DNA of 64,000 nucleotides from NCBI GenBank assembly GCA_029432795.1, contig JARNMJ010000014.1:1-64000 (forward strand), read 5' to 3'. Below the pieces are notes generated by a model that searched no databases, had not been told where the DNA came from, and saw nothing but the letters and a program-made list of their open reading frames with translations. Below, in pieces: positions 5,417 through 30,874 of the stretch; the stretch's first letter is position 1; every line of letters starts with the position of its first letter. This DNA comes from Pontiellaceae bacterium B12219 (lineage in GTDB: Bacteria; Verrucomicrobiota; Kiritimatiellia; Kiritimatiellales; Pontiellaceae). A program made the translations under genes and the position numbers.

Positions 5417-5460
5417 AAGATAACTTAAATACAACGAAATCATATCATCTATTTAGAGGA
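5417..5460 (-). promoter_or_regulatory. Promoter of the CotH gene with shared operator
   Basis: Inverted repeat TCATCTATTTAGAGGA at 5445-5460 (one arm base off TCCT-N8-AGGA). Its centre is exactly 33 bp from the centre of a TATCTT -10 hexamer (5417-5422, minus strand). The predicted start of transcription is near 5410, giving a 5' leader of about 36 nt. There is no recognisable -35 box. The same geometry recurs at five other promoters in the window. Confidence 0.6.
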
Positions 5461-5557
5461 GCTAATCTTTAGCCCTGAAAGAGATATACGGTTCAGCCGA
5501 ACTCTTCATACAAGCCCGGGCATACACACCCGTGCCCTCCACCTTCAATCAACAGTC

Positions 5558-5589
5558 TGAGATCCCATACGTTAACGTATGGGATCTCA
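5558..5589. repeat. 32-bp perfect palindrome
   Basis: Left arm TGAGATCCCATACGTT is followed directly by its exact reverse complement, with no loop. It lies between the stop of the CBM gene (5634) and the promoter of the CotH gene. There is no T-run on either strand, so a classical terminator is doubtful. It could be a cruciform, an RNA processing hairpin or a protein-binding site. Confidence 0.75.
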
Positions 5590-5633
5590 CAACAACACCA
5601 TCCCGGAGAATGATTCGCTCCAAACTCTGTGGG

Positions 5634-7745: not shown

Positions 7746-7756
7746 TGTTTTTCCTC

Positions 7757-10700
7757 TTAAAGATTATCGTTGGTTTTGAGCACATATTCAGGACCAAGCA
7801 CGATAAACTGAGTCTCCAGCATTGCACTGCCCCCGCCACTCACCGTCACGGCATTCGCACCGCCCGCGACCGAGAAAGACGTGTTCACAACCGGCAGAGT
7901 ACCGAGCAGGTTCCAGTTGTTGTCATAGTGCTGTGCCGTGGAACCACCGTAATATTCCAGATATTCCCCCGGGCCAACGGTGCCTGTAACCGCCAGCGAT
8001 CCACCACTGCCCAGCGATATCGTCGGGTTACTGAGCGAAGCACTGCCTTCATGATCTACACGGATCACAAAATTCAGAGCCTGCGCTGCTTCAGGATTAT
8101 TGAGTGTCAGCGTGGTTCCGGCAGTAATCGTCTGCTTACGGGCATGCGTTCCTTTTTCCTGTTCAATATAAAAGGGAAGATCGGATCCGTCGGTCCGGCC
8201 CATCACATGATGCGGGGTCCAGACATATTTTCCCAGGGCATTGGTACTCAACACCAGGGCTTCTTCGCTCTCATAATGCCCCCCGTTCTTCCACATGAAA
8301 GAATCGACATAGGCCACATCGTCGTCATGAAACATCGGAGCCAGTTTAATCCAGTCGCCAAACAAACTATTCATTTCATCAAAAAGACCATGATCCTCCA
8401 TGACCTGCCGGGAAATTCCCCGGCCGCTCATCGGCACCATGAAAAACGGGCGGAATCCATTCACCATAATGCTTTCATGCACATGGAAATGGGTGTCCAG
8501 CCGGCTGGTTGCCAGATAAGAGCTGTGCAGTTCATCCGTGCGGATATCAATGTTCATCGCAAAATAGCTCAGCGAAAGATCGTCCCGGATACCGCTGAAG
8601 TCCTGCTCAAAATTGGCGGCAATACTTTTACCGACCCGAGACGAAGAGCCCGGAACGGTCATTTGGCTGTAGTAAAAATTCAGCAGTTCCCGTTCAATCC
8701 AGGGCAAGGTGCGGTGAATCTCCGGCCCGTCGAAATGCATGTGGCCCAGTTCGAGGTTATTCGCCATCCGAGTATATTCCAGCACCATTTCCTCCATCAG
8801 GCTGTTGGTCTGGCCCAGATCATATTCGGGAATATAGTTCTGACCGTAGGAGCAGAAGAGTCCGACCGTTTCCTCTCCCGCACCATGTGAAAATGCATCC
8901 GTGCCCTCAAAACCGCGCGTGCAGTCCTCCAGCACCCATACACCCTCTTCTGTACGGCTGATCCGGCCGGCCCGCACAATCTCTTCGCCGATCCGGAAAT
9001 AGTTATAAAATGAGATCCCGTGCGCATGGGCAATGCCCTGCCCCAACAGCGGAGGCACTGTGCCGGGCTCCGGACGGAAAAGCAGACGGGTTTCAGTGCT
9101 ATCCACCGCGTTCTCCAGCGTACCACGACCCCAGCTTGCCAACCGGCGGTCCACCGTGCCTACCACATAATCCGGATCGTGTTTTCCGATGCCGAAACTG
9201 ACCATATGCAGCCGCAGCTTCACCCCTTGTGCGGCAAGATAATCCGCATAGGCTTTCAGATCGCTTTCACCATTAGGAAATACATCCGTATTCACATGGG
9301 TCTGTCCGTTATATTTCGGCCAGTATTCGCCGCGCCAGGTACGGCAATGCAGATATACCCGCTTCGCATTGTTCGGGAAAACGATGGTATCAGTCAGGCT
9401 GTAGAGCTCCGCCTCGGAATCCGCTTCAAGAATCACCTCATTGAGATCCACAATATTGGTGCGATAGTGTTCGACCCAGTTCAAAACATCCGTTTCGGTC
9501 CAGGTTGTGAACCCTGCCGGATGCGGCAGGTTTTCATTGGCCCAGATGGATGCCAGACAGTTGTCGAGCTCAGCACCGTCGAGCGCTCCGTCATAAATCG
9601 CCACACCACCCCGTTTGCCGTCCAGCGTCTGCCCCCAAAGATACTGCCAGCGGAAATAGACCGGATCGCTGCCGGTGGAGTAGATGACATCATCCAGATC
9701 TTTAAAACCGATGGACGCATTGCTGTAGAGTTTCAGATAAAATCCATAGGCCTGCAGCTCCTCTTCAGGAATCCCTTCAACATTAATCAGATGAATCGAA
9801 ACATACCGGTCATACGCATCAATGCGCACTGTGAAGCGCGGCAGCCCACCGGATTCCGAAATCGTCAGCGTGTCCCCGGCAGTAACAACATGTTCCATTT
9901 TAGTGGAAGAATAGTTCTTCCCGTCAAAGTGGCGGAGATAAAACCCGTCGGATGAATGCGTATCAAGCCGGTCGACCCCGTTAAGGATCAGTGTTGCGGG
10001 TTCTCCATTGAAGTCAAAGGTGAGCTCTGAATTTACGGTTCCGTTTAAGACCGTAATCGAACCGGCGGAAGCAAGGCCGTTTTCCAGGGCCGACACATCG
10101 ATTCCCAGCGCAGTAATCAGATCTGATGCCGTGTATATTCCCGCATCCAATGCTGTTCCCCGAATGGTGGCTGCATTAAAGGTCAGAGCATGCTCCAGCG
10201 ATAAAACACCCTGGCAATCCAGCGTACTTGAAGAACTGGAAAAATCACCGGCAAACGCAAGTGTTCCTGATGCCCCGACATCAAAACTGCCGGTGCCGAA
10301 GCCCCTCCCCTCCAAACGACCGCCCTGCACATCCCACAGACCGAAAAACGCATTTAAAGCATCTGTAATGCGAACGGTGCCGTCCGTAATTTGAAAAGAG
10401 GTAATCGAATTACCCGATAGCAGTTGTGAATTCAGTTCCACTGTTCTGTTGGAAAAGCCGTCATTGCTCAGATGAATGCTCCCTGACCCCGTCAGGGTAC
10501 CGCCGACCGTAGCTGTACCGCCTCCTCCGTTTATAATTGAGGTGCCGTCTTCCATAATGAGATTCACTGAAATGGTGCTGCTTCCATTCTTGAGTTTAAA
10601 CTCAGACGAATCCCGGATCGTGAGCGAATCACCGCCAAACATTCCGCCGGATGTCGGGGTGCGCGTGTCTCCTCCGGTATCATTGATGTAAATATTTCCA

Positions 10701-10858
10701 GAGCTTGGAACGGCCGTATCGGACCAGTAACCGACCGTATGCCAATCCGGACCTCCAGCCGGCATGGCTACAGTTTGATAAACGGTGGCGGCGTGAGTTC
10801 CCATACATACGCCGGTGAGCAGCCCCCACAACAGGATAGGCTTACATTTATACATCAT
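7757..10858 (-). CDS. Secreted TIM-barrel-like putative glycosidase with beta-helix repeat (locus 1)
   Basis: 1033 residues from the ATG at 10858 (GAGGGA 6 nt upstream). The signal peptide ends near THA. Residues ~25-280 are one copy of the beta-strand repeat unit (YQTVAMP, GGDSLTI, LIMEDGTS, GTGSFDVG) that occurs three times in the divergently encoded protein at 11237. Then come the shared unknown module (about 295-400; HFDGKN, RIDAYDRYVSIHLI), a large alpha/beta domain (about 440-880) and a terminal beta domain. The alpha/beta domain has GVKLRLHMVSFG, RIGEEIVR, CTRGFEGTDA and HFDGPEIH; the acidic pair in HFDGPE is a plausible active site. I cannot assign a CAZy family. Its paralogue at 18540 lacks the N-terminal repeat unit. 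The first gene of an operon with 5634. Confidence 0.75.
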   Translation of the reverse strand: MMYKCKPILLWGLLTGVCMGTHAATVYQTVAMPAGGPDWHTVGYWSDTAVPSSGNIYINDTGGDTRTPTSGGMFGGDSLTIRDSSEFKLKNGSSTISVNLIMEDGTSIINGGGGTATVGGTLTGSGSIHLSNDGFSNRTVELNSQLLSGNSITSFQITDGTVRITDALNAFFGLWDVQGGRLEGRGFGTGSFDVGASGTLAFAGDFSSSSSTLDCQGVLSLEHALTFNAATIRGTALDAGIYTASDLITALGIDVSALENGLASAGSITVLNGTVNSELTFDFNGEPATLILNGVDRLDTHSSDGFYLRHFDGKNYSSTKMEHVVTAGDTLTISESGGLPRFTVRIDAYDRYVSIHLINVEGIPEEELQAYGFYLKLYSNASIGFKDLDDVIYSTGSDPVYFRWQYLWGQTLDGKRGGVAIYDGALDGAELDNCLASIWANENLPHPAGFTTWTETDVLNWVEHYRTNIVDLNEVILEADSEAELYSLTDTIVFPNNAKRVYLHCRTWRGEYWPKYNGQTHVNTDVFPNGESDLKAYADYLAAQGVKLRLHMVSFGIGKHDPDYVVGTVDRRLASWGRGTLENAVDSTETRLLFRPEPGTVPPLLGQGIAHAHGISFYNYFRIGEEIVRAGRISRTEEGVWVLEDCTRGFEGTDAFSHGAGEETVGLFCSYGQNYIPEYDLGQTNSLMEEMVLEYTRMANNLELGHMHFDGPEIHRTLPWIERELLNFYYSQMTVPGSSSRVGKSIAANFEQDFSGIRDDLSLSYFAMNIDIRTDELHSSYLATSRLDTHFHVHESIMVNGFRPFFMVPMSGRGISRQVMEDHGLFDEMNSLFGDWIKLAPMFHDDDVAYVDSFMWKNGGHYESEEALVLSTNALGKYVWTPHHVMGRTDGSDLPFYIEQEKGTHARKQTITAGTTLTLNNPEAAQALNFVIRVDHEGSASLSNPTISLGSGGSLAVTGTVGPGEYLEYYGGSTAQHYDNNWNLLGTLPVVNTSFSVAGGANAVTVSGGGSAMLETQFIVLGPEYVLKTNDNL
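10696..10710. repeat. 15-bp dispersed palindrome, copy 5
   Basis: TTCCAGAGCTTGGAA in the repeat unit of the glycosidase-like gene; coding frame gives VPSSG. The paralogous repeat protein at 21506 keeps the PSSGN residues but uses codons that break the palindrome. Confidence 0.7.
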
Positions 10859-10915
10859 TTTGATTCCCTCTCTTTTGCTTTCAACCTTGTTGCAATATGC
10901 CCCTATTGACCAACA

Positions 10916-10959
10916 CTTATAACAGGTGTTCAAAGATTGGAAATCCTATGTTTGGAGGA
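10916..10959 (-). promoter_or_regulatory. Leftward promoter of locus 1 with shared operator
   Basis: On the minus strand TCCTCCAAACATAGGA (10959-10944) is centred 33 bp upstream of the centre of the -10 hexamer TATAAG (10921-10916). The predicted leader is ~51 nt, the same as for the paralogous operon at 20924. The proximal arm of the repeat falls about where a -35 box would lie, and no TTGACA-like box is present. Confidence 0.7.
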
Positions 10960-11099
10960 GCATAAAGACCTATCGTACTCCTTCGAACCGCATAACCGCT
11001 GTAGAAGACGGCATTACAGCGGAACCTCATCATTCCGTCGCCACAACCTGAATAAAACTCGGAGTTTCAACCTATTCTTAAATGATTAAAGCGACTTCA

Positions 11100-11143
11100 T
11101 CCTCCAAACGTAGGATGTAAAAACCGTAATTCCCTGATATCTT
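11100..11143 (+). promoter_or_regulatory. Rightward promoter of locus 1 with shared operator
   Basis: TCCTCCAAACGTAGGA at 11100-11115 (arms extend to CATCCT/AGGATG) is followed by -10 TATCTT at 11138-11143, centre-to-centre 33 bp. The 16-mer differs by one base from the operator of the divergent operon. Predicted leader about 87 nt. Confidence 0.7.
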
Positions 11144-11236
11144 AGTACTTATCTGGAAAAAGTGTCGAATGGTCTCTTGCACACGTGTGCTGGGATTTTA
11201 CGGCAAAAAAAGAGAAAATAACACGAGGAGATCGTT

Positions 11237-13975
11237 ATGAAACAATCACGCTCAGCACATCAACTCCTGCGCATTGGCGCATGGAGCACAGCCCTGGCCT
11301 TCGGCCTTGGAGCTCAGGCCGCAGACATATATCAAACTGCAAACATGCCAATAAATACCAACTGGGAGATGTCTAATTTTTGGGATAACGCAGAGTCCCC
11401 TTCTGCCGGAAATGATTATTTTAATGCAACAGGCAATGACACACGCTCTCCCACCGGTAACGACCCGGTTTTCGGCGGAGATTCCCTCACCATAACCAAT
11501 GGCTCACGATTTCAGATGAAACACGGTGGCACCGCAACGGTGAACCTGATTTTTGAAGATGGAAGCCGGATGACCCATGGCGGTGGAGGCGGTGGTCTTG
11601 ACGGCACGATCACTGGAGATGGAAGCCTCACCATTGACATGGTTTCCGGCCAGACCCGAAATATTACGATTAACTCACTGATCGAGCCCAATACCCTCTC
11701 ATCCATCACAGTACTCGGCGAAAGTATCTTAACGGTAGCCAACTCCGCCAACACGTATACAGGTATATGGAATGTGGCATCCGCCACGTTGAAAGGTGAA
11801 GGGCTGGGACAGGCTTCCGCCTTTATTGTCGGCGGAACCAGCACGCTGGATTTCGATGCCGGCTTTACAAACACCAGCGCTGATATCTCGATTTCTTCCG
11901 GCGGCAACTTTATCCTGGACCAGGATGTTGAAGTTTTCTCAGCCTCTATCTGGGGAATCGCCCTGACCAACAAGACGGGCGGCTACACTGGCGCAGAGTT
12001 GAAGGCAGATCCAACCTTTGGAACCGCTTTTGTCGGATCCTCCGACGACAGCACGCTGACGGTGCATTATACTCCGCAGGTCGTGGTAGGCGACACGATC
12101 TATCAGATTGCCAACATGAGTGCTGTAGCAACAGATGGCTGGAACGACACCAACTTCTGGGATAACGGCCTGGCCCTGATTGCTACCAATGACTACATTA
12201 ACAACAACTTCAACCCCACCAGTGTAAACGAAATCGCGTGGGACACCCGTACACCGGCGTCGGGCTCGGACACCTTTGGAGGCCACTCCCTGACCATGAC
12301 CAACGGCGCCAATTTTGCCATCAAAAACAACGGCCCCTGGACGGTTGATAACCTATACATCTGGGCAGGCAGTTCAATCCGGCTTGCCGGCGGTAGCTCA
12401 TCCGCTCTGGGAGGTGCACTGAACCTGAAAGGAACCGGATCAGTTGATCTCAATGCAGGAGCGTTCGGCCGGATGTGCACGATCTCTTCGCTGATGTATG
12501 CCGACCCCACCATTTCCAATATTGTGATAAATATTGGCGAAACTTCACCGACCAATACAACACAGGCCATGACTGCTGGGTTTGCCATCAACAGCGCACT
12601 CAACGACTTCGCTGGTCTTTGGATCGTCGAAGCCGGCCTATTGAAGGGAAATAACTTCGGTAACGGAAGCTTCCTGGTCACGGATATGGGTGTCCTCGAC
12701 TTTGACTACAGCTACATCAACGCCTCGGCCGACCTTAGGGTTGAGGCCAATCCGACCAATGCAGCACAGAATGGCATGCTGTTGCTGGATAGCAATGTTC
12801 AGGTCGGCTCGGCGACACTCGGCGGGGTAAGCCTTCCCGAAGGCTCTTATAGCGGCGCTGACCTGAAAGCGACCTACGGAGCAGTGATTCACGAAGATAC
12901 CAGTGATGTCGCCGTTCTGGCTGTGGGTGCCTCTATTGCCCTCCCGGTATACCAGACCGGAAATCAACCGACAGGCCCCGGCTGGACAGATCCAACCACA
13001 TGGGACAACAATATGGCTCCGACCAACCTGTTCGCCTATATTAACGGCAACTATGAAGCCCGCTCTCCCAACGTTTCCAATCCGGTATTCCCCGGCCTTT
13101 CCTTTACCATCATCGACAATGGCTATCTCAAGTTCAGACACGCCGGCACAGCCACCATCTCGAATCTAACGATGTATGCAGGAACCGAAATCGTTGCGGT
13201 GACCGGAAATCAACTTGATGGAGATCTGACCGTAAAAGGTTCTGGTTCATTCACCTTCGACACACAGGATGATGGAAGAACACTGACCATCCTCTCGCCA
13301 GTCACCGTGGACAGCACTGTAACCAGCATTGTAATTACCTGCTCCAACGCATATGAGGATAGCGAGAGAAATGCCACAGGAACAACCCTCACCGACACGG
13401 GCAACACCTTTACCGGCACCTGGGTTGTTGATAAAGGCTACCTCAGTGGCCCCGGCCTTGGCCTGGGAAGTTTCCACGTTAAGGAAACAGGATACCTCTC
13501 CATCGGCGCGGCCTATTCCAACGAAACGGCAGACCTGACGATTGATGTGAATCCCACAAATTCCGCAACCGGTGGCCAGATGCTGCTGGAATACGACATG
13601 ACCGTAAGCAAGGCCACTATTTGGGGAACACAGCTTGATGCAGGTGAATATACAGGGGCCTACCTGAAATCCACCTTTGGTGACGCATTCGATGCGGCCA
13701 GCTCCGACACAGCTGTTCTGAAAGTCACCTTCATTCCTGACATTCCGGAAATTGGTGATATTGAGTACACCACCAGTGGATCTGACCTCGTTATCGGTTT
13801 TGTCGCGACCAACTATGTAAGCTACACCATACTGGCCGACGACAATCTCGTTCTTGATCCGGCATGGCCCTTCACGGTCACCAACATTGTCGGCGTAAAC
13901 GGTCCTGTAGCCATTACGAACGATACATCTGCTGATCCGAATATGTTCTATAAGGTCGAAGCAGAACTGGACTGA
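11237..13975 (+). CDS. Secreted three-repeat beta-helix (autotransporter-strand-like) protein
   Basis: 912 residues with signal peptide MKQSRSAHQLLRIGAWSTAL and onward, cleaved near AQA. Three tandem units of ~280 residues follow (starting near 33, 285 and 570). Each opens with YQxxNxP...W.d...WDN and contains GGxSLT, a strand-rich Asn/Gly/Ser/Thr segment, a LKGxGxGxxxFxV turn and a closing ExKA.YG.AF. This resembles autotransporter-associated beta-strand repeats of adhesin-like or surface proteins, but there is no beta-barrel translocator. The last ~75 residues are the common C-terminal beta domain (YTILADDNLV...FYKVEAELD). GAGGAG lies 7 nt before the ATG. It is monocistronic, has a strong terminator, and is paralogous to 21506. 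Possible role: surface display or binding of the substrate handled by the divergent glycosidase operon (inference). Confidence 0.75.
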   Translation: MKQSRSAHQLLRIGAWSTALAFGLGAQAADIYQTANMPINTNWEMSNFWDNAESPSAGNDYFNATGNDTRSPTGNDPVFGGDSLTITNGSRFQMKHGGTATVNLIFEDGSRMTHGGGGGGLDGTITGDGSLTIDMVSGQTRNITINSLIEPNTLSSITVLGESILTVANSANTYTGIWNVASATLKGEGLGQASAFIVGGTSTLDFDAGFTNTSADISISSGGNFILDQDVEVFSASIWGIALTNKTGGYTGAELKADPTFGTAFVGSSDDSTLTVHYTPQVVVGDTIYQIANMSAVATDGWNDTNFWDNGLALIATNDYINNNFNPTSVNEIAWDTRTPASGSDTFGGHSLTMTNGANFAIKNNGPWTVDNLYIWAGSSIRLAGGSSSALGGALNLKGTGSVDLNAGAFGRMCTISSLMYADPTISNIVINIGETSPTNTTQAMTAGFAINSALNDFAGLWIVEAGLLKGNNFGNGSFLVTDMGVLDFDYSYINASADLRVEANPTNAAQNGMLLLDSNVQVGSATLGGVSLPEGSYSGADLKATYGAVIHEDTSDVAVLAVGASIALPVYQTGNQPTGPGWTDPTTWDNNMAPTNLFAYINGNYEARSPNVSNPVFPGLSFTIIDNGYLKFRHAGTATISNLTMYAGTEIVAVTGNQLDGDLTVKGSGSFTFDTQDDGRTLTILSPVTVDSTVTSIVITCSNAYEDSERNATGTTLTDTGNTFTGTWVVDKGYLSGPGLGLGSFHVKETGYLSIGAAYSNETADLTIDVNPTNSATGGQMLLEYDMTVSKATIWGTQLDAGEYTGAYLKSTFGDAFDAASSDTAVLKVTFIPDIPEIGDIEYTTSGSDLVIGFVATNYVSYTILADDNLVLDPAWPFTVTNIVGVNGPVAITNDTSADPNMFYKVEAELD

Positions 13976-15846: not shown

Positions 15847-15914
15847 GATATCTTCCTTATTGAGGTTATCTCTCGTGCATCGAGTTGAACATGAAGGAAC
15901 CTTGTACCTTCCGC

Positions 15915-20924: not shown

Positions 20925-20981
20925 ACGCGTATTTCCTCTTTTCCGAACACAATGGCTGTATATTCGATCTATTGACCAAAC

Positions 20982-21025
20982 AATATAACATAGGTTCATC
21001 TTTTAGTAATCCTGCAAACAGAGGA
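20982..21025 (-). promoter_or_regulatory. Leftward promoter of locus 2 with shared operator
   Basis: The inverted repeat at 21010-21025 (plus strand TCCTGCAAACAGAGGA) is centred 33 bp from the centre of -10 TATATT (20987-20982, minus). Predicted leader 51 nt, identical to locus 1. No -35 box. Confidence 0.7.
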
Positions 21026-21364: not shown

Positions 21365-21408
21365 TCCTATAAACGTAGGATATGAAAACTTTCATTTTCG
21401 GCTACAAT
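21365..21408 (+). promoter_or_regulatory. Rightward promoter of locus 2 with shared operator
   Basis: TCCTATAAACGTAGGA at 21365-21380 with -10 TACAAT at 21403-21408; centre-to-centre 33 bp. Predicted leader about 91 nt, similar to locus 1. No -35 box. Confidence 0.72.
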
Positions 21409-21505: not shown

Positions 21506-24202
21506 ATGAAGCAATCACGATCACTGAAACACATCCTGCGCGTCGGCACATGGAGCACCGTCCTGGCATTCGGCCTGGCGGCACAAGCGGCAGAATTCTA
21601 CCAAACCCGATCAATGAATCCCGGAGAGCACTGGAACGAAGCATACTGGACCAATGCAACCCATACGGTGACCAATACACCGTCCAGCGGAAACACCTAT
21701 ATCAATGATGTCGGCGGCACCAGAACACCAAGCGATGGCGCGAATTTCCTAGGGGACCTGCTTACGATCAAATCCGGCCGACAGCTTCAATTTAAGCATG
21801 GAAGCAGCTCCTCCGTGACAGTAAACCTGGTCATGGAAGATGGATCCACAATGGCGAATGGCAGCAGCACCGGAAAGATGGAAGGTACGCTCAACGGTAG
21901 CGGCGCTATTACGCTGGATACTACACAGTACGCTGGCCGCCCGATTTTTATCGGATCGCTGCTGGAATCAGACAACACCTTTTCCGAATTCGAAATCGTC
22001 GGAAACGAGGCAAACGTTGTGACGTTTACCAATTCCGCCAACACCTTTACCGGGGTATGGGATGTTGCAAGCGGCACCCTCAATGGCGCAGGGTTTGGAC
22101 AGGCGTCGGGCTTCATCGTTGGCGGCAGTGGACGCCTCGACTTTGATGCCGACTTTGTAAACATGAATGCAGACATCACGATTTCTTCCGGCGGTGAGTT
22201 CCTGCTTGATCAGAATGTGGAGGTCTATTCGGCACAAATCTGGGGCATCACACTCACCAACAACACCTACACCGGTGCCGAACTCAAGGCCAACCCCGTC
22301 TATGGAGCCGCTTTTACCGGCTCCTCCGACGCAAGTACCCTAACGATTTCCTACACCCCGCCGGTCATCGTCGGCGACACCATCTACCAGACCGCTGACA
22401 TGCCGTCCGGGACAGACTGGAATGATCCTTCCTACTGGGACAACGGACTGGCACCCATCTTCAGCAACGACTATGTTAATGCAGGAGCAGGCTGGGGCAC
22501 CCGCACTCCGGGTTCGGGTAGCGGAAGCTTCGGAGGGAACTCGTTAACGCTGACCAACAGCGCCAAACTGACCATTAAAAGCAACGGCCCCTGGACCATA
22601 GATAATTTCAATATCTGGGTAGGATCTTCCATCAGCAGCGGTGGACCTTCTGCTCCAACGATTGCCGGTGGACTGAATCTGAAAGGATCCGGATCGGTTG
22701 TTCTGGATGCACAGTTCCCCGGTAGAATGACCACTATTTCCTCACTCATCGATGCGGATACAACGGTGACCAACATCATTATTCAGATTGGACAAACTGC
22801 ACCGACCAATACGGCCCAGGCCCTGACGGCTGGCTACATCATGAGCGGCCTGCTCAATGATTTCAACGGGGTTTGGGTTGTCCAAGAAGGCCTCTTGAAA
22901 GGCGAAAACTTCGGGGCCGGAAGCTTCCTCATCACCGACATGGGCTATCTGGACTTCGATGCCGACTACAACAACAGCAGCGCAAGCCTAACGATCGAGG
23001 CCAACCCGACCAATTCCACTCAAAGCGGCATGATCCTGCTCGACCAGATCGTGACCGTCGGCTCCGCCACCATCTGGGGCGAAACCCTTGCGGATGGCCT
23101 CTACTTTGGCGGGGACCTGAAAGCACATCCAATTTATGGCGGAGCCTTCGACCCAGCATCCTCCGATGGTGCTCTTCTCGCCGTTGGGGCGGAAATTATT
23201 ACACAAACCGAAGGACACTCTGGCAATGAGAGTTGGGAAACGACCAACAAATGGTCAAATGGTGAAGCCGCATCAACCAACTTCCACTATATCAACAACC
23301 TAGGGGCGGGAACGCGTACACCCAATTACTCCAACCCTACATTCCCGGGTAAGTCGCTAACGCTCGATAATGGTTCTAGTCTTTTGCAAAGGCACACCGG
23401 AACAGGGACGATCTCTAACATGACGATGACTGCGGGTTGCGCGATTTCCCTAGCCACAGGTGGCATCAAAGTATTGGACGGAGATATTGAACTGAAGGGA
23501 TCAGGTTCGTTCACCTTGGACTTCGGGTTTGAGGGCCGCACCTGCGACATCCAATCTCTGTTGACCGTTGGTGAAAGCATTCACACCATTGAACTCAACA
23601 GAAACGGCAATTGGAATACCAATGCATTCAAAACTTCCGGATACACGCTCTCAAATCCTCTCAATACGTTCGATGGCTTGTGGCACGTTCAGGATGGATA
23701 CCTGAAAGGGGTTGGATTCGGCACCAGCAGCTTCCTTGTTGATGACTGGGCTTATCTGGATTTCGATTCGGATTACAGCAACACGAATGCCTCTCTGACC
23801 GTCACCAATGGGGGCATGGTCCTACTCGACCAGACCATCACGGTTGGTGCCGCAAACATCAATGGCGATGAACTGGATGCCAATACCTATTCCGCAGCCA
23901 CCCTCATCTCCACCTATCCAGATGCCTTCGATGCCACCAGTTCGGGAACCCTTATCGTAGACAAAGGTCCGGTACCGGAAATCGGTGATATCACCATCGG
24001 CGTTGCCGATGGCAGTATGGTATTCGGCTGGGACGGATCCGCCTTGGCCAGCTATACTGTGCAGGCAGACAACGATCTGGTTTTCCCTCCGGGTTGGAGC
24101 AATGTGGTCGGCCAGACCGACATCCCCGGCATCGACGGCCCGATGGGCGTGACCAATGCCGTGACAGATCCTAAGATGTTCTACCGGGTGATCGGCAACT
24201 AA
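21506..24202 (+). CDS. Secreted three-repeat beta-helix protein (locus 2)
   Basis: 898 residues, paralogue of 11237. The signal peptide (MKQSRSLKHILRVGTWSTVL start) is nearly the same. Three ~280-residue repeat units start near 32, 285 and 565 with FYQTRSMNP, IYQTADMPSG and TEGHSGNESW; each contains GGNSLTL-type, LKGxxFGxxSFLV and YxGxxLK motifs. The common C-terminal beta domain follows (YTVQADNDLVFPPGW...FYRVIGN). CGAGGAGA lies ~8 nt before the ATG. The strand-rich Thr/Ser/Asn/Gly composition suggests a right-handed beta-helix exposed outside the cell. No catalytic signature is visible. It is monocistronic, with a terminator at 24230, and is followed by the two-component system. Confidence 0.75.
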   Translation: MKQSRSLKHILRVGTWSTVLAFGLAAQAAEFYQTRSMNPGEHWNEAYWTNATHTVTNTPSSGNTYINDVGGTRTPSDGANFLGDLLTIKSGRQLQFKHGSSSSVTVNLVMEDGSTMANGSSTGKMEGTLNGSGAITLDTTQYAGRPIFIGSLLESDNTFSEFEIVGNEANVVTFTNSANTFTGVWDVASGTLNGAGFGQASGFIVGGSGRLDFDADFVNMNADITISSGGEFLLDQNVEVYSAQIWGITLTNNTYTGAELKANPVYGAAFTGSSDASTLTISYTPPVIVGDTIYQTADMPSGTDWNDPSYWDNGLAPIFSNDYVNAGAGWGTRTPGSGSGSFGGNSLTLTNSAKLTIKSNGPWTIDNFNIWVGSSISSGGPSAPTIAGGLNLKGSGSVVLDAQFPGRMTTISSLIDADTTVTNIIIQIGQTAPTNTAQALTAGYIMSGLLNDFNGVWVVQEGLLKGENFGAGSFLITDMGYLDFDADYNNSSASLTIEANPTNSTQSGMILLDQIVTVGSATIWGETLADGLYFGGDLKAHPIYGGAFDPASSDGALLAVGAEIITQTEGHSGNESWETTNKWSNGEAASTNFHYINNLGAGTRTPNYSNPTFPGKSLTLDNGSSLLQRHTGTGTISNMTMTAGCAISLATGGIKVLDGDIELKGSGSFTLDFGFEGRTCDIQSLLTVGESIHTIELNRNGNWNTNAFKTSGYTLSNPLNTFDGLWHVQDGYLKGVGFGTSSFLVDDWAYLDFDSDYSNTNASLTVTNGGMVLLDQTITVGAANINGDELDANTYSAATLISTYPDAFDATSSGTLIVDKGPVPEIGDITIGVADGSMVFGWDGSALASYTVQADNDLVFPPGWSNVVGQTDIPGIDGPMGVTNAVTDPKMFYRVIGN

Positions 24203-24263: not shown

Positions 24264-24301
24264 TTCGTATATCGACTCACCAGCTGTTCGTGGTATATAA
24301 A

Positions 24302-26329
24302 ATGAACATGTTTCGAACCACAGCCATCTTTGCCGGCGTTTCCGCCGCTGTTGCCCTGACCGCCGGCATGGTCCAGGCCACGGACAAGGACGGCTCGCGG
24401 TATGGCGTGGAGCATCAATCACTTGCTCAACTCGAAAAACGTCTTAAAACGATCGATGCTGAAATTGAACAGTTGGCACACTACAGCCTGCGCGGCGGCG
24501 TGGGCCCCGTCGGGTACCGCTCGCTTAAGAATAAGGAAAATAATACCAAAGAATGGATCCAGGTTGAACTGGGTGAAGCCGCCCCCATCGATCAGGTCGT
24601 CCTGGTGCCGTCGATCTGGCGGGATACCAAAACCGGTTTCCGGGCAGATGGATTTCCCCGCGAGTTTAAGATCGTTGCCGGCACAGCGGCAGATACAAAC
24701 GGCACCGTCATCTCCTCCTTTACAGAAGCGGATTATCTACTGCCCCGAATCGCTCCTGTGGTTATTTCCTGCAGTGCAACAGCATCGTGGCTGCGTGTCG
24801 AAGCCGATAAACTGTCTGCTCGCGCGTGGGATGGAGAATATGACCTGGAACTTGCGGAAATCCTTGTATTTAATGGTCAGGAAAATATCGCGCTGCGCAA
24901 GCCTGTAAACACATCTTCCAAGGGATTCGGCGAGGGTAAAGCCCGTAAAGCCCGCTTTGCGGTTGATGGCTTCCTCCCTTATCTCCTAGATGCGTCTCAG
25001 GGGGAACAGAGCATCGCATTTGTGAGCAAACCGGGTATTGTGGATAAACCAATCCTCACGATCGACCTGGAAAAACCATATCCACTGAACCGTCTCCACC
25101 TCCATGCCACGGACCTCAGCGACACCGTCCCCCACTCCACACCGGCCACATTCGGAATCCCCAAAAAACTGATACTGGAAGGAGCCAATCAGGCGGACTT
25201 TTCGGATGCGGCACAATTGCTCTCTTTTGAGCAGGATTCCGTCTTTGAAGTAGGTCCTATAATCATGCTCAACTTCCCGCAAACCATTTGCCGGTATGTA
25301 CGCCTTATTGCCATTGAGCCCTACCTGGGAACGGAACCCAAAGCAAGCGGATACCAAATCGGCTTTGCTGAAATTGAACTGTTTTCCAACGGGCGAAATG
25401 TGGCCCGGGGCAAACTCTTTCACACCAATTTCGAACCCGCCACGCACGACCGCTCGCTGGTATCACTGACGGACGGCCTTAACCTCTACGGACAAATCCT
25501 GCCCATTCGCGAGTGGATGCAGGAATTATCAAGACGTCACGACCTTGAAACCGAACGTCCCTTTGTTGTGGAGGAGCTGAACCGGCGGTATTCCAAGCAG
25601 AAAGTCAACCTGCACCGTCTTGGCTCGCTCGTGGTTCTGATGGCGGCCGGCATCGTTATTATCATCGTTCTGGACCGAATGGTTCGGCAACGTGCAATTT
25701 ACCGAACACGTGAACGCATTGCCGCCGACCTGCACGATGAGCTCGGTGCGAATCTACATGCCATCGGCCTGCTCAGCGGCATTGCTGAGTCTGTGGTTAA
25801 TGAACCCGAAACGTTGACCGAAACGGTGCGCTGCATCCGGGCCCTGACCAAACGTACCGGCGAAGCCACCAAACTTTGCACGAACATGCTTGAAGCCAAT
25901 GGACTCTGTGAATATCTGGTCGAAGAAATGAAGCGCGCGTCCTATCGCCTGCTGGCCGACCTCGAACACAACATCTCCATCACCGGTGAAAAATTTCTAC
26001 AGGATCTCAAGCCCCGCAAACGGATCGATCTCTTTCTGTTCTATAAAGAATGTCTCACCAACATCATCCGCCATTCAGGAGCAACGAATGTGACCACTGA
26101 GCTGGTGGCTTCTGAAAAATCAATTATTCTCATCATTTGTGATAACGGCCGAGGCATGGAACAAATCGAAGGAAACGGTATTCCCTCATCGCTCAAACGA
26201 CGGGCACGGCTGCTTCGAGGCAAGGTTTCCGCCGAACAGCGAGCTGATGGCGGCACCTGTATTACACTGAAACTAAAGACCGGAAAATGGAATATCGGCA
26301 CAGTTGATATTCCGCCGAAACGAACATAA
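24302..26329 (+). CDS. Membrane sensor histidine kinase with two discoidin-like input domains
   Basis: About 675 residues. A signal/anchor segment (about 1-25) is followed by two F5/8-type-C (discoidin-like) beta domains in the periplasm (about 55-195 and 200-370; WIQVELGEAAPIDQVVL and ILTIDLEKPYPLNRLHL). Such folds usually bind carbohydrate. A transmembrane helix follows at ~445-465 (VVLMAAGIVIIIVL). Then comes a HisKA_3 dimerisation domain with the H-box RIAADLHDELGANLH (phospho-His codon at 25733) and a HATPase domain (ECLTNIIRHSGA, DNGRGM). No Shine-Dalgarno is evident; a GTG at 24290 or ATG at 24308 are alternatives. It is followed 22 bp later by its response regulator. Its position between operator-bearing operons suggests it senses a glycan and controls them (inference). 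Confidence 0.88.
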   Translation: MNMFRTTAIFAGVSAAVALTAGMVQATDKDGSRYGVEHQSLAQLEKRLKTIDAEIEQLAHYSLRGGVGPVGYRSLKNKENNTKEWIQVELGEAAPIDQVVLVPSIWRDTKTGFRADGFPREFKIVAGTAADTNGTVISSFTEADYLLPRIAPVVISCSATASWLRVEADKLSARAWDGEYDLELAEILVFNGQENIALRKPVNTSSKGFGEGKARKARFAVDGFLPYLLDASQGEQSIAFVSKPGIVDKPILTIDLEKPYPLNRLHLHATDLSDTVPHSTPATFGIPKKLILEGANQADFSDAAQLLSFEQDSVFEVGPIIMLNFPQTICRYVRLIAIEPYLGTEPKASGYQIGFAEIELFSNGRNVARGKLFHTNFEPATHDRSLVSLTDGLNLYGQILPIREWMQELSRRHDLETERPFVVEELNRRYSKQKVNLHRLGSLVVLMAAGIVIIIVLDRMVRQRAIYRTRERIAADLHDELGANLHAIGLLSGIAESVVNEPETLTETVRCIRALTKRTGEATKLCTNMLEANGLCEYLVEEMKRASYRLLADLEHNISITGEKFLQDLKPRKRIDLFLFYKECLTNIIRHSGATNVTTELVASEKSIILIICDNGRGMEQIEGNGIPSSLKRRARLLRGKVSAEQRADGGTCITLKLKTGKWNIGTVDIPPKRT

Positions 26330-26351
26330 ACCGATGTTGCGGAACCCTATT

Positions 26352-27014
26352 ATGAAAAAGATTAAAATCATGCTTGTTGAAGATAATCCTGAATATCGGG
26401 ACGTCATAAATTTTGCGATGAAGCGGTACGAAAACTTTGAGCTAAGCGGTCAATTCGGTACTGCCGAGATTGCACTGCGCAGTTTTCACGATATGTCCCA
26501 GCGCATCATCCCGGACATCATTCTGCTCGATCTCAGGCTCCCGGGCATGGACGGACTCGAAGCCCTCGCCCAGTTCCGCAAAACCAGTCCTGAATCCAAA
26601 ATCGTCATATTGACCCAGTCCGACAGCGAAACCGACGTACTAAAGGCCATCACCAAAGGCGCTTCGGGTTATCTGCTGAAAAGTTCCAGTATGCAGGAAA
26701 TTGCCGACGGCATTCAGACGGTTGTACAGGGCGGTGCTTCTCTCGATTCCGGGGTCGCGAAATTTATCCTCAACACTCTGAAATCCAAACTGCCGGAGAA
26801 GGAAGTCAAAGTTTTTCTCACTGAGCGCGAACTGCAGACGCTCACCCTGCTGAGTGAAGGGCTCGTTAAAAAAGAGATTGCGGATCAGCTGAATATCAGT
26901 GTAACCACTGTGGCCACGCATGTGGGCCATATTTATGAAAAGTTTGAAGTCCAGAATGCGCCGGCCGCCATCACCAAAGCCTTCAAACTCGGCATCCTAC
27001 CTGCTGAAGATTGA
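26352..27014 (+). CDS. NarL/FixJ-type response regulator
   Basis: 220 residues. Receiver domain (about 1-125) with acidic pair E10/D11, phospho-acceptor D60 (DIILLDLRLPGMDG) and a Thr/Lys switch region; C-terminal LuxR-type HTH (about 155-215, LTERELQTLTLLSEG, KKEIADQLNISVTTVATHVGHIYEKF). ATG 26352 was preferred because MKKIKIMLVEDN is a standard receiver start; ATG 26334 is also in frame. It is the partner of the upstream kinase. NarL-type regulators bind as dimers to short inverted repeats, which fits the TCCT-N8-AGGA sites at six promoters in the window (inference). Confidence 0.9.
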   Translation: MKKIKIMLVEDNPEYRDVINFAMKRYENFELSGQFGTAEIALRSFHDMSQRIIPDIILLDLRLPGMDGLEALAQFRKTSPESKIVILTQSDSETDVLKAITKGASGYLLKSSSMQEIADGIQTVVQGGASLDSGVAKFILNTLKSKLPEKEVKVFLTERELQTLTLLSEGLVKKEIADQLNISVTTVATHVGHIYEKFEVQNAPAAITKAFKLGILPAED

Positions 27015-27054: not shown

Positions 27055-27070
27055 CAGAGCGAAGAACGAA

Positions 27071-28396
27071 CTAATTGCTGCCGCCGGTTGCAGAATCCTG
27101 AATCGCAGCCAGACCGGCCAGCGTTTTAAAACTTCCGTCCGCAATGCGCGTCAGCTGCACAAAGTTCTCCTGCTTCTTCGGATCACTTGAGGTATCGTAA
27201 TCTTCCGGCGTAAACATGATAACGTTTACGGAATACATTTCCTTTTTACTGCTGCGACGCCCCAACCCACTGGTCATCATACTTTCGGGCTTATTCGCCT
27301 TACGTTGGGCAGTTAATCCGGCATACATCTCTTTGGGTGAATAGTGATACCGTTGCGGCTGTGGCGGATGTTCAGTGTTGGGAAAATATTTATTGATCAG
27401 GGAATGGCCTACCAGCACCTGTGGAGGCAGTCCTTCAGCCACACGTTTTTTATTATCTTCTTCAAGTTTCTGATGCGCTTCCTTCTTTTTGCGCTCGTAA
27501 TCATCTCGCTTCGACTGAGACCACTCCTTAGCCGCTTTCGCTTCATGGAACTGCCAGCCCCAGCTCTGCGTCAGCACAAAGACCGTATCCGCCTGTTGCT
27601 GCATCGCCACCATAGCTGCTGTACTCCAATCACTGGTCCGCTGCAGCGGTGTGATCGCATATTTGGCTTGATCACCGTCCACCCGGGCACCTCCCTTTCC
27701 AAGCGTTCTCAAACCATATGATTGATCCGCGGTAGCGTTCAGGGTTTCCAGCCATTCCTTCACTTTTTCAACATTGGAAGAAGAAGCAGAAACCAAATCC
27801 GGAAAACGGGTGATCACCTGATTTTTATCAAATACAGCGATGTTAAACAGTACAGTTGGATTCAGATTTCCGAGAATCGTCACCAACTCTTCTTTAATCA
27901 CTTTATAAGCAGGAATCCCTCCCATTTCGTCGTACATCATCCATGGGGAGGAATCGAGGATGATAAATACCTTCTCGCCCTTACTCTTTACACCGAACAC
28001 CTCAATTTCCGGCATAGAGAATCCCAGTGTACCGGCACCACCGAGTCCATCGCCACCGGCATTTCCCAAACCGCCCTTCACCCCGGTAATTTCCGGCATT
28101 TTAATATCCGGCGTGGTCTGATTAATTTTGGGTTGCACAACGATGCGCTTACGCAGCTTCGGTTTCTGTACCTGTTTCTTTTTAATATTAACCGGCACCT
28201 GAAGTTTTCTCAGCTGCATTTTCGGGCGGTTTACCGGTTTGGCCTCAAAACTCTGTTCTTCCTTTTTAATCACCGTCACAGCCACAAAAGAAAGGGCAAC
28301 CACAATTAAAAGGGCATGAATACCCAAACTGACCAAGGCTGCACTGGATTTTGCATGTTTCTGAAAAAACTGTTTTTTCTTTGGATTACTCAGCAT
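27071..28396 (-). CDS. TonB-stalk-like membrane protein with degenerate vWA domain
   Basis: 441 residues. Cytoplasmic N-terminus, one transmembrane helix (about 25-45), then a periplasmic Lys/Pro-rich stalk (KPVNRPKMQLRKLQVPVNIKK), the motif TPDIKMPEITG, a Gly-rich spacer, and a von Willebrand A-like domain (about 140-300, EKVFIILDSSPWMMYDEM...LFNIAVFD). The MIDAS motif reads D-S-S-P-W instead of D-x-S-x-S, so metal binding may be lost. A long charged helix follows (KRDDYERKKKEAHQKLEEDNKKR). The start at 28396 has GAGG ~6 nt upstream; an upstream ATG at 28423 is also in frame. N-terminal architecture matches proteins 50-562 and 31186-33069. Function unknown; possibly an ExbB/D-energised or scaffold-type envelope protein. 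Confidence 0.75.
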   Translation of the reverse strand: MLSNPKKKQFFQKHAKSSAALVSLGIHALLIVVALSFVAVTVIKKEEQSFEAKPVNRPKMQLRKLQVPVNIKKKQVQKPKLRKRIVVQPKINQTTPDIKMPEITGVKGGLGNAGGDGLGGAGTLGFSMPEIEVFGVKSKGEKVFIILDSSPWMMYDEMGGIPAYKVIKEELVTILGNLNPTVLFNIAVFDKNQVITRFPDLVSASSSNVEKVKEWLETLNATADQSYGLRTLGKGGARVDGDQAKYAITPLQRTSDWSTAAMVAMQQQADTVFVLTQSWGWQFHEAKAAKEWSQSKRDDYERKKKEAHQKLEEDNKKRVAEGLPPQVLVGHSLINKYFPNTEHPPQPQRYHYSPKEMYAGLTAQRKANKPESMMTSGLGRRSSKKEMYSVNVIMFTPEDYDTSSDPKKQENFVQLTRIADGSFKTLAGLAAIQDSATGGSN

Positions 28397-28631
28397 TCCA
28401 ACCTCAACTCCTAAAGTATTCATTTAGCAACAAATATGATTGCCATAAATATCCATGTATTAGAACAAATTAACCAACCACGCACATCCTGCATTTAGAG
28501 CCCCCCCCAACTCGTCAAACGGCTTGCATCTATGCTTACAACAATCAGCATTTCGTATGAGCACCTTTCCGGATTAATGCGCTGTTCGGAAATGCTTTTA
28601 AGGTAATGCCTCGTAAAACCAGACCGGAGTA

Positions 28632-30797
28632 CTACTCGGACTCCAGCACTTCCAGCCCCCGCCCTGAATGTTTGTAGAAATACGGATAAACGCCTTCGCC
28701 GTGCTCCATATACTCCTGGGCTGATCCCCAAAACGAACCATTCATGTATCCACGATACGATGAGGTGTACGGCTTCCCTTCAATTTCCGCAATCGTTTGC
28801 TTGAGCAGCAACCGGGTCCGCCAGATATCCATCAAACGAACATGCATAAACATGGTATCCCAAATCCCGTATTCCGCTTTATGGGCCTCAGTAATAATCT
28901 TTTCAATTTCAGCCAGCGCGGGTTTCAGGTTTTCTGCAAACGCCTGAGAATCCTGATCCTCCAAATAGCCATCAAACGCCTTGGTCACAATATCAAGCAT
29001 CTGACAGGAATACATATGAACCGCGATCTGATAGGTAAAGTGCGCCTGATAATAGTATCTGCGATCAGCCGGAATGATACGGCCCACGCTCCTGCTCTGC
29101 TGCCATAGAGCAGGAAAAAACGCAGCCGTTTCAGTCAGGGGTTCCTTCGCCTGGGCGAATTGATTATCGAACCCTTTAACGTCCCGGAGATCTCCCCCCT
29201 CTTTAATAATCTTCGCGTATTTTTTGAGCATTTCCTGGGTGAGATACTGAATCAAATGCTCGCCGCGCGCCCCCTTCCATCTGCCCTGCACAGGCATCTT
29301 TTCGCGCATGTAGGGAATTTGATAGTACTGCAGGCGCAACTCCGTCAACGCGGGAGCCGACTCCGGCGAAAACTCCTTGGCATACCAGCCCAGAAGATAC
29401 TCCTGCATGGCCTCTTCCGGCGTTGTGCTCAGCGCCGGTTCGGCATCCCAAAGAAAATCGGTAATAGCTTCAACGGACATGGCGGCCGGACGAATACCGC
29501 TCACGTTGATAATTGCATACTTGGTGGCCCCTGCTTCCACATAGCGGCGCAGCTCTTTGTAGATCCGTGCCGGGGGTACGCACTCGGTGGTTCGGTTCTG
29601 GGTATTCATCATCATCATGACGTGATAATAAAGACCATCGCCCGGCGACAGGTCCGAGCCGTCCCCCTTGTCGCGCATATAACCGCGCCCGTCGTCGGCA
29701 AACATTTTACACACACCATCGGGAACCTTGAGCAGCCCGGCATTATAGAATCTGCCTTGTTCATTCCAAAGTGCCGCCACAATCGTTCCGTCCGGATCCA
29801 CTTCACGAATAATCTCTGTCTGCTTATGCATCGCTTCCGAAATAACCGCAGCTCGACCGGCATCGTCTTTCGGAGCAGCCGGATCGCTGTTCCAGAACGG
29901 GCCATCGCTTTCACCCCGGAAGCCGATAATCCACGCCACTTTTTTACCCGCCTGCACCCGTGCCGATTTACGCCAGGCATCTTCAAGGATCTCCTTATCG
30001 GTGATATAGGAAAACGGAATACCCTCGGGCCAGTCCATCATGTTCAGACCCACCGGCAGAATGTGATGAAATGTAATGATCACATCGCGGCGTTTACACA
30101 GCTCGTAGACCGAAGCATCGGAATAAGGGGCGGATTCCGGCGCAATCATATTTCCTTTGCAGCGCAGAAGTGTTTCCAGAATTTTATCCATCCACTCCAT
30201 GGAAATGACGTTTCCACCCAGCGGATCACGGTGCATGCCGTCGTGCAGTTCCTCGTCGTTGATAAACCATCCTCGATTTTCAAACGTCGGTTTTTTCGAA
30301 GTGTAAGCCATCTCCGCCATGAGTTCGATTTCACTGCGTTTAGCGGGTGGGTTATCGGTAAAGATATACATCGGATCCACACCGAGCACCCGCTCACAGA
30401 AGGTGTAGATGGCGAAGATCGTTCCGCGCACATCCGATCCCGTGGCAACAAGAGCCGGATTTTTTTTCACTTTCCCGAAAAAGAGGCGATGCTGTTCCGC
30501 GCCTCCCGGCATCTGGCTGTCGATCAGTTCCTGCGTGTGCTCAACCGAGCCGAAAAGAATGACAGGGCCGGTCCAGGAAGAACGCGTATTATTACGGAAA
30601 ATGACCGGCGGATAACCGAATACTTTATACCAATCACGCTCCGCATCGCGGATCGCTTCCTGAATGGCCGGATTTTCATAATCCGCTTCCATCACAATCC
30701 ACGGTGTATCCCCATTTATTTTTACGGAAGCGGAAGCAAGTGAAATACTGATAAAGAAAAGAATAATATGGGCGACAAACCGGCTGTGTATACGCAT
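28632..30797 (-). CDS. GH115-family alpha-glucuronidase, secreted
   Basis: 721 residues with a signal peptide ending LASA. Recognised as glycoside hydrolase family 115 by VRGTIFAIYTFCERVLGVDP, ENRGWFINDEEL, HHILPVGLNMMDWPEG, GFRGESDGPFW and the MMMNTQNRTTE-type segment. GH115 enzymes remove (4-O-methyl)-glucuronic acid side chains from xylan and related polysaccharides. Characterised members are usually longer (about 800-1000 residues with a C-terminal beta domain); this one ends soon after the helical region, so it may lack that domain. CAGGAG precedes the ATG. Monocistronic, with a promoter that carries the shared operator (30831-30874). It gives the best hint that the regulon's substrate carries glucuronic acid. 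Confidence 0.88.
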   Translation of the reverse strand: MRIHSRFVAHIILFFISISLASASVKINGDTPWIVMEADYENPAIQEAIRDAERDWYKVFGYPPVIFRNNTRSSWTGPVILFGSVEHTQELIDSQMPGGAEQHRLFFGKVKKNPALVATGSDVRGTIFAIYTFCERVLGVDPMYIFTDNPPAKRSEIELMAEMAYTSKKPTFENRGWFINDEELHDGMHRDPLGGNVISMEWMDKILETLLRCKGNMIAPESAPYSDASVYELCKRRDVIITFHHILPVGLNMMDWPEGIPFSYITDKEILEDAWRKSARVQAGKKVAWIIGFRGESDGPFWNSDPAAPKDDAGRAAVISEAMHKQTEIIREVDPDGTIVAALWNEQGRFYNAGLLKVPDGVCKMFADDGRGYMRDKGDGSDLSPGDGLYYHVMMMMNTQNRTTECVPPARIYKELRRYVEAGATKYAIINVSGIRPAAMSVEAITDFLWDAEPALSTTPEEAMQEYLLGWYAKEFSPESAPALTELRLQYYQIPYMREKMPVQGRWKGARGEHLIQYLTQEMLKKYAKIIKEGGDLRDVKGFDNQFAQAKEPLTETAAFFPALWQQSRSVGRIIPADRRYYYQAHFTYQIAVHMYSCQMLDIVTKAFDGYLEDQDSQAFAENLKPALAEIEKIITEAHKAEYGIWDTMFMHVRLMDIWRTRLLLKQTIAEIEGKPYTSSYRGYMNGSFWGSAQEYMEHGEGVYPYFYKHSGRGLEVLESE

Positions 30798-30830
30798 GAG
30801 TTACTCCTGAAAAGATTCGATTAAACACCC

Positions 30831-30874
30831 AGTTTAGCCGAACCACAGTCGATGCCTATCCTCTGTTTATATGA
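30831..30874 (-). promoter_or_regulatory. GH115 promoter with shared operator
   Basis: Plus-strand TCCTCTGTTTATATGA (30859-30874; one arm base off TCCT-N8-AGGA) is centred 33 bp from the centre of a -10-like TAAACT (30836-30831, minus). Predicted leader ~27 nt. The first ten bases are identical to the minus-strand reading of the locus-2 leftward operator. Confidence 0.5.

Follow-up and report, generated by a model that had tools for sequence, protein, structure and literature searches.

Six promoters in a 64,000-nucleotide stretch of DNA from Pontiellaceae bacterium B12219 (the window; positions 1-64000 of contig C55 of genome G000, which comprises 4.75 Mb in 273 contigs) share a 16-bp inverted repeat at a fixed distance from a -10-like hexamer, and these dyads are very likely the binding sites, as predicted from the DNA, of a phosphorylated NarL/LuxR-type response regulator encoded in the window itself, at 26304-27014. 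The dyads had been pointed out in a first-pass annotation; the link of the sites to the window's own two-component system, which very probably holds judging by the pattern of the sequences, is new. The motif, its spacing, its dyad symmetry with covarying arms, its co-location with regulator genes and its patchy occurrence elsewhere in the phylum were computed directly.

All six dyads are where the first-pass annotation put them: four match TCCTN8AGGA exactly, two have one arm mismatch, and in 6/6 the hexamer starts 22 bp past the dyad (33 bp centre to centre), the invariant spacing that had been claimed. All six are also found with a matrix of 34 sites (see below). Four lie on the minus strand: the one-mismatch dyad at 5445-5460, with TATCTT at 5417-5422, precedes the CotH unit; TCCTCCAAACATAGGA (coding strand; exact) at 10944-10959, with TATAAG at 10916-10921, precedes the 7757-10933 unit; TCCTCTGTTTGCAGGA at 21010-21025, with a core inverted relative to the others and TATATT at 20982-20987, heads the 21010 unit; and the one-mismatch dyad TCATATAAACAGAGGA at 30859-30874, followed by TAGGCA, with TAAACT at 30831-30836, precedes the GH115 unit. 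On the plus strand, TCCTCCAAACGTAGGA at 11100-11115 (an exact match that also has the AAAC core), with TATCTT at 11138-11143, precedes repeat protein 1, and TCCTATAAACGTAGGA at 21365-21380 (exact; the top score in the window), with TACAAT at 21403-21408, precedes repeat protein 2. Two weaker dyads, found by matrix, lie on the minus strand: GGCTCTAAATGCAGGA at 28487-28502, with TCTAAT at 28459-28464, and TCCTTCAAATATACGA at 674-689, with TACTAT at 646-651.

Is a short inverted repeat enough to define such a site? Within the window the four exact matches compare with 0.70 expected, and 0/100 shuffles reach four; one-mismatch dyads are not enriched (23 vs. 19.8 expected) and were rejected as standalone evidence, and the two one-mismatch sites (5445 and 30859) therefore draw their credence from spacing and conservation. 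Across the genome, bare TCCTN8AGGA was rejected as the motif, being present at 69 places vs. 59 in the reversed control, while TCCTNNAAACNNAGGA occurs at 10 places vs. 0, which makes the AAAC core part of the signal, the bare dyad being barely enriched. The six TCCTNNAAACNNAGGA places outside the window have TANNNT at the same gap in 6/6 cases, read in the AAAC direction; C6:2536 and C211:1623 look like paralogous copies, which leaves five counted as independent, with a chance of ~0.015 each. The composite TCCTN2AAACN2AGGA-N22-TANNNT with up to two mismatches is found at 30 strand-places in the genome vs. 6 in the reversed control.

The same sites emerge from matrices built elsewhere. With the 34-site matrix, which consists of sites of other genomes that were themselves found by a search started from G000 sites and is thus not fully blind, the six rank first in the window (45.5 to 22.6), followed by 28487-28502 (16.4), 674-689 (15.4) and then scores of 7.5 or less, the best reversed control being 6.3. 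A 7-site matrix, which uses only the non-window sites of A2, places five of the six in the lead (43.6 to 15.1); the 21010 site scores 6.5, under the best control (7.2), and 46080-46095, in the housekeeping half of the window, scores 10.2, above it. With its inverted core, the 21010 site is the least secure of the six. Nor are the six fully independent, because two divergent regions of the window go back to an old duplication (proteins 50-52% identical). In the intergenic DNA of these regions likeness is restricted to three islands, of 33, 23 and 25 bp, which cover the start of a gene, a -10 and a dyad.

The first-pass annotation had proposed, as a check, a matrix scan of the genome and its relatives with a count of spacings; in such scans the 22-bp gap dominates, in the genome itself and in others. 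A matrix of 13 G000 sites finds 78 matches (training sites included) vs. 0 in the control at score 12 over 1.265 Mb. A dyad-only matrix, made from the same 13 sites stripped of -10 information and run at threshold 12 on stretches of G001, G005, G016 and G021, finds 76 matches vs. 8 in the reversed control; TANNNT stands at gap 22 in 41/76, and none of the other gaps between 5 and 49 has more than 3. With the threshold lowered to 10 and to 8, gap 22 accounts for 46/119 (other gaps, 5 or fewer) and 51/200 (7 or fewer). A sequence-only model of the 13 sites (R1), searched at E <= 0.01 in 40 genomes (25 of the same genus, 15 of other genera), matches 6/40, all of the same genus (14 in the genome itself, 9 in G001, 6 in G005, 5 in G016, 2 in G021, 1 in G015), and has no match in the 15 genomes of other genera. 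The matches cluster at G001 C118 10-58 kb, G005 C1 3.34-3.40 Mb and G016 C162 87-129 kb. A family matrix, iterated over 1.265 Mb consisting mostly of regulator neighbourhoods, yields 144 matches, a count in which the 13 training sites are included and some palindromes appear in both orientations, vs. 3 in the reversed control, which grew from 0 during the iterations. Finally, a family model trained on 93 sites from regulator neighbourhoods (R2) was searched in ten genomes: matches are confined to the six that hold close regulators (38 in G000, 23 in G001, 24 in G005, 28 in G016, 17 in G021, 2 in G202), and there are none in G024, G004, G012 and G028, genomes without close regulators. In 80 regulator loci of named genomes R1 finds no match; in 77 of these loci (1.29 Mb) the family matrix finds two matches of at least 12, and the closest three (L078-L080) bear other dyads.

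Which protein would read these sites? The window encodes, on the plus strand, a membrane histidine kinase at 24290-26329, whose domain scan gives an ectodomain with weak F5/8C-like matches, HisKA_3 and HATPase_c, and the response regulator at 26304-27014 (probable start Met at 26352), with a receiver (PF00072, E 3.1e-21) and a GerE helix-turn-helix (HTH; PF00196, E 5.4e-17); the latter is proposed as the activator that binds the dyads. The two genes overlap and sit behind the repeat protein at 21506-24202 and the window's best site, 21365. Contigs C211 and C233, also site-bearing, each carry such a kinase/regulator pair, and PF00072 and PF00196 are found in their regulators too. PDB relatives of the regulator are VraR, NarL and DesR, and those of the kinase DesK and VraS. 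Among 24 family kinases scanned, HisKA_3 is present in 24/24, HATPase_c in 23/24 and F5/8C-like matches in 18/24, with the H-box intact (H482/D483 invariant). The regulator has no sigma-54 activation domain at E <= 0.001 and no AraC HTH, sigma-54 sites not having been scanned for.

Regulator genes and dyads lie together well beyond the window. A search at E <= 1e-30 in the 40 genomes finds 86 homologues of the regulator in five of them (16 in G000, 17 in G001, 20 in G005, 20 in G016, 13 in G021), 54/86 with at least 50% identity. The closest (78%, G005) lies 2.4-5.4 kb from an R1 match, as do those at G001:C118, G001:C122, G016:C162, G000:C211 and G021:C1:449k; the distance is ~5.3 kb at C55, G001:C118, G005 and G016:C162, and ~2.4 kb at C211, G001:C122 and G021. 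In G005 and G021, the two genomes out of five with few contigs, 20/24 (1.7 expected) and 12/17 (0.7 expected) of the R2 sites are within 40 kb of a close regulator, and in G021 17/17 (1.2 expected) within 70 kb, counts that are partly circular because R2, unlike R1, was trained in regulator neighbourhoods. Out of 140 assigned sites, 35 lie 2250-2750 bp upstream of the regulator centre, 32 of them pointing away, towards the divergent gene, while no other 250-bp bin out to 10 kb contains more than 6. A variant listing covers 54 of the 86 regulators, and 53 once G001:C204:113008 is excluded (two of the 53 are below 50% identity; two partial matches of at least 50% are left out). A kinase-sized open reading frame (ORF; 647-722 amino acids) ends beside 49/53 regulators, and 35/53 have a nearby dyad that qualifies (score of at least 18, at 1.5-6 kb), mostly ~2.4 kb off. 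Could another dimeric activator, of the CRP/FNR, LacI or MarR type, act at these class II promoters, the two-component genes being merely co-carried? Such loci may carry several regulators, and a twofold-symmetric site near -42 fits CRP-type activators too. This is nevertheless improbable: the sites track this regulator subfamily across genomes, often at the constant ~2.4 kb; R2 sites are found near distant NarL-type regulators in only 1/24 cases in G005 and 0/17 in G021; and the arms vary with the local regulator lineage, which would not be expected of one global regulator.

The dyads follow regulator lineages. Variants recur across species with the same regulator subtype: TCCTGTAAACACAGGA accompanies the helix YTTVDTHVAH at C211, G001:C122 and G016:C145, TCTACCAAACGGTGGA is found at G001:C204 and C229, and CCCTCTAAACGGAGGG in G005 and G016. 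For the pairs with a qualifying dyad, the distance between dyads correlates with that between helices (r 0.31) and between receivers (r 0.40; both p 0.0002). A helix-to-base recognition code was considered and is not established, the helix correlating less well than the receiver. Relatives at E <= 1e-60 are found in 13/387 sampled genomes of the phylum (11/198 genera). An outgroup set of 20 rows comes to 18 loci, since L079 and L301 are apparently one contig and L299 (1157 bp) was dropped; judged by eye, 10/18 have an AAA/AAT-centred dyad 2345-2455 bp upstream, and in L294 and L296 a dyad lies 2.8 and 4.6 kb away, while L292 (two regulators), L293, L300, L303 and L306 have no clear dyad. Matrix scores of these ten dyads range from 6.1 to 28.9, the best reversed control in any row being 7.4, and the weakest is thus not significant by score. 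This occurrence suggests a patchy, perhaps transferred module. Among plasmid records, 808 match the regulator, all below 60% identity.

Several observations weigh against the assignment of the dyads to this regulator, in addition to the partial circularity of the R2 proximity counts. No qualifying site is found at 18/53 regulators, and five close regulators (two at G016:C145; G000:C218:63k; G005:C1 at 1.33 Mb and 0.98 Mb) have no R1 match within 60 kb, only variant dyads. The sites C233:1643/2709 are of the window type and their nearest regulator is of another subtype, and action in trans must therefore be assumed. Once lineage is accounted for, the helix contributes little (partial p 0.067; r within genomes 0.07, p 0.043). 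Even the unconserved spacer correlates with the receiver (r 0.17, p 0.009; helix 0.06, p 0.22), and because receiver distance also tracks the spacer, shared descent explains part of the correlation.

What would the regulator do at these promoters? The family consensus reads CA-TCCYNYAAACRNRGGA-TAKGCA, followed by a stretch rich in T, a partial TG ahead of the hexamer (0.41, 0.56) and TANNNT. TAKGCA directly follows the dyad, at -34..-29 and 16 bp upstream of TANNNT, as a weak -35-like hexamer that we liken to the TTGACA element. In the window it is full only at 30859 (TAGGCA), partial at 5445 (TATGAT) and 21365 (TATGAA), and poor at the other three; the statement that the promoters lack a -35 box is thus nearly right for the window and less so for the family. 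The dyad is centred near -42, if the -10 hexamer is placed at -12..-7, and fixed relative to the -10, and a poor -35 and a -10 are present, as in class II promoters. Across 126 distinct dyads, pair 4/13 is complementary in 80 (shuffles 53.5 +- 5.1; 0/2000 reach it) and pair 5/12 in 51 (33.4 +- 4.9; 1/2000); covariation is weaker for pairs 1/16, 3/14 and 6/11, whose observed values are reached in 2, 27 and 54 of 2000 shuffles, pair 2/15 hardly varies and the two central pairs show no pairing, all against shuffles that ignore the relatedness of the sites, a limit that also counts against the proposed assignment. Covarying arms over an A-rich centre would suit recognition by a symmetric dimer, and position, symmetry and co-location together point to class II activation by a phosphorylated NarL-type dimer. 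The activator-type regulon with a dyad near -42 that the first-pass annotation envisaged is supported by the fixed spacing, genome specificity, like N-termini downstream across species and signal-peptide-like products. An operator at which a protein blocks RNA polymerase until a glycan is present would argue the other way, and the region from -50 to -35 does overlap the polymerase footprint; repression, though, would need no fixed 22-bp gap, and activator-dependent promoters typically combine a weak -35-like box with a partly extended -10, as seen here, which makes a repressor unlikely. That an alternative sigma factor recognises the element, or that it is a transcript hairpin, is very doubtful: conserved positions run from the dyad to the -10, but the arms differ between paralogous loci while TANNNT is constant, and the dyad lies upstream of the -10. 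An RNA element was rejected: comparison with Rfam gives nothing at E <= 1 for 10600-11300, and three window matches at the gathering threshold miss the sites. Some dyads are flanked on either side by a box at gap 22, namely L024:16850-16865 (G000:C233; CATAAT/CATAAT) and G016:C162:35454-35469 and 67516-67531 (CATAGT/CACTAT; TACCTT/GTATTT); these may be bidirectional promoters in the space that separates the kinase from the divergent gene.

The genes behind the sites are, to a large extent, genes for exported proteins. Downstream of sites that score at least 24 and have a callable ORF (n=99; starts picked by a simple rule), a hydrophobicity rule finds signal-peptide-like starts in 85/99 ORFs vs. 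260/423 for background ORFs in the stretches that hold these sites (odds ratio 3.8, p 1.7e-6), and 11/99 proteins have PEP-CTERM-like C-termini. Sampled genes behind or near sites encode CotH, GH115, GH116, alpha-L-fucosidase, GH28, GH95, sulfatase, PhoD-like and SASA/GDSL esterase proteins. In the G001 C118 cluster, sites precede proteins with N-termini like those on C55, C211, C233 and C6 of G000; the site G001:C118:52989 precedes a 1674-amino-acid protein with an N-terminus like that of the CotH/lamin-tail-domain (LTD) protein, and N-termini like that of the GH115 protein follow G001:C118:10649, G005:C1:3339191 and G016:C162:87301. The first-pass annotation assigned to the regulon all the secreted carbohydrate genes and none of the housekeeping ones. 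The second half of this holds, as the housekeeping half of the window (31-64 kb) has no family-matrix match of at least 12 and none with up to two mismatches; the first half is too narrow, because the products of 50-571 and 27071-28423 are membrane proteins and not carbohydrate-active enzymes (CAZymes), and PEP-CTERM proteins, accessory membrane proteins and repeat proteins are among the predicted targets.

Most of the window genes concerned are on the minus strand. The CotH kinase/LTD secreted protein (Pfam) is at 740-5443; its listed start overlaps the promoter, and the likely start is an ATG 42 bp past the -10. The secreted protein at 7757-10933, with a likely start near 10858, 57 bp past the -10, has an N-terminal part like that of the repeat proteins: its first ~270 residues resemble the 21506 (38%) and 11237 (35%) proteins, and residues 302-1058 resemble the secreted protein at 18540-20999 (52%), so that it looks like a fusion of two divergent gene types. 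Neither 7757-10933 nor 18540-20999 has a Pfam or NCBIfam match above cut-off, and 18540, the only one compared with the PDB, has none there; of the product labels given at first pass, CotH and GH115 are thus confirmed by Pfam, and "glycosidase" for these two lacks a family match. The 21010 unit would continue from 18540-20999 into a LamG-domain protein at 15915-18527, its probable second gene judging by spacing, and a PhoD-like phosphatase at 14371-15918, its probable third judging by overlap (both domains from Pfam). The GH115 enzyme (Pfam) is at 28632-30797. The protein at 27071-28423 is a membrane protein whose N-terminus is hydrophobic and which matches a sortase-target model below threshold; N-termini like its own follow the sites G005:C1:3404021 and G001:C118:5916 and 33835. 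A membrane-protein N-terminus at 50-571, downstream of the 674 site, is 68% identical over 146 amino acids to the 31186-33069 protein. These three (all minus) are related, the first two having a predicted site and 31186-33069 none; sites in G001, G005 and G000:C218 are followed by proteins whose N-termini are similar, and the hydrophobic N-terminus of the three presumably resembles that of TonB-type accessory proteins. On the plus strand, repeat protein 1 (11237-13975) is 50% identical to repeat protein 2 (21506-24202), both secreted; the latter is the probable first gene of the kinase/regulator operon, given a gap of 87 bp. Of 25 secreted proteins whose genes head the kinase operons or diverge from them, 19 fall into one BLAST component (E <= 1e-5), and the secreted protein beside the kinases is a possible third member of the module, although low-complexity matches may contribute. 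Farther off lie a SAM riboswitch (RF00162, 60 bits) at 38516-38620 (plus), upstream of an ORF starting at 38797, a bacterial small SRP RNA at 59234-59331 (minus) and a tRNA-Asn at 56180-56251 (minus).

From these features we infer binding, activation, a phosphorelay with its ligand, and operon structure as follows. The kinase ectodomain, with its weakly matching discoidin-like, possibly carbohydrate-binding modules, would sense a glycan or a breakdown product, and the kinase would phosphorylate the regulator; a regulator dimer would then bind the 16-bp dyad centred near -42, beside the weak -35-like hexamer, and recruit housekeeping RNA polymerase to the TANNNT promoter, often with an extended -10. 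Its targets would be secreted hydrolases, PEP-CTERM proteins, large secreted repeat proteins, GH115, CotH and accessory membrane proteins, and through the window operon the regulator would raise its own expression. The window system is probably one of a family of paralogous kinase/regulator/dyad modules. There is about an even chance that patchy, perhaps transferable cassettes, each with a glycan-sensing kinase, a LuxR-type regulator, a divergent secreted protein and a cognate 16-bp dyad with covarying arms, control secreted glycan-degrading loci in Verrucomicrobiota, regulators and dyads having co-diverged so that sensor, regulator and targets could be matched by the dyad alone; if so, the window regulator would prefer TCCTNYAAACRNAGGA over the variants TCCCGTGAACACGGGA and TCTACCAAACGGTGGA.

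How does this compare with known systems? Algal polysaccharides, sulfated ones among them, are degraded by Pontiella-type bacteria (PMC7356697, PMC10880615). The second of these reports describes PF07730, PF02518 and PF00072 genes near glycoside hydrolases and sulfatases in Pontiella agarivorans and suggests substrate sensing; it reports the same gene association, but its text on these genes gives no promoter motif, binding site or regulon, and the word "promoter" appears 0 times in the main text. A search of the open-licence PMC literature returned no paper that defines a promoter code or regulon for Pontiella-type bacteria, and none on this motif. A proposed sensor, regulator, sites and target list are here brought together; they would account for the way these bacteria turn on genes for secreted, often likely sugar-degrading, proteins and would allow scattered loci to be grouped into regulons. 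The NarL/FixJ family (NarL, VraR, DesK/DesR) is alike in its receiver with a LuxR-type HTH, its HisKA_3 kinase, the paired genes and a dyad near -42; unlike those systems, the present ones are marked by a large kinase ectodomain that gives F5/8C-like matches, by 16-bp TCCY-N8-RGGA dyads built around a central A-tract, by their number (in each of five genomes, 13-20 regulator homologues) and by a tie to secreted glycan loci. Bacteroides hybrid systems sit beside their target genes. They too form a large paralogous set of sensors for polysaccharide utilisation genes (PMC11253607); whereas the hybrids join a kinase and an AraC-type domain in a single polypeptide, kinase and regulator are here separate genes and the DNA-binding domain is LuxR-type (GerE). 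PrsK/PrsR of Proteobacteria is likewise a two-component system with a shared upstream motif and some PEP-CTERM targets, but PrsR interacts with sigma-54 and the motif holds a sigma-54 site (PMC1569441); here a LuxR-type regulator is paired with a sigma-70-like -10, the consensus ending in TANNNT, and the regulator has no sigma-54 activation domain (sigma-54 sites were not scanned for). A table in the same source lists 65 PEP-CTERM proteins and no PrsK/PrsR for Verrucomicrobium spinosum, and its text stated in 2006 that further PEP-CTERM regulators and DNA motifs were still to be found; the window system is a candidate answer to that call.

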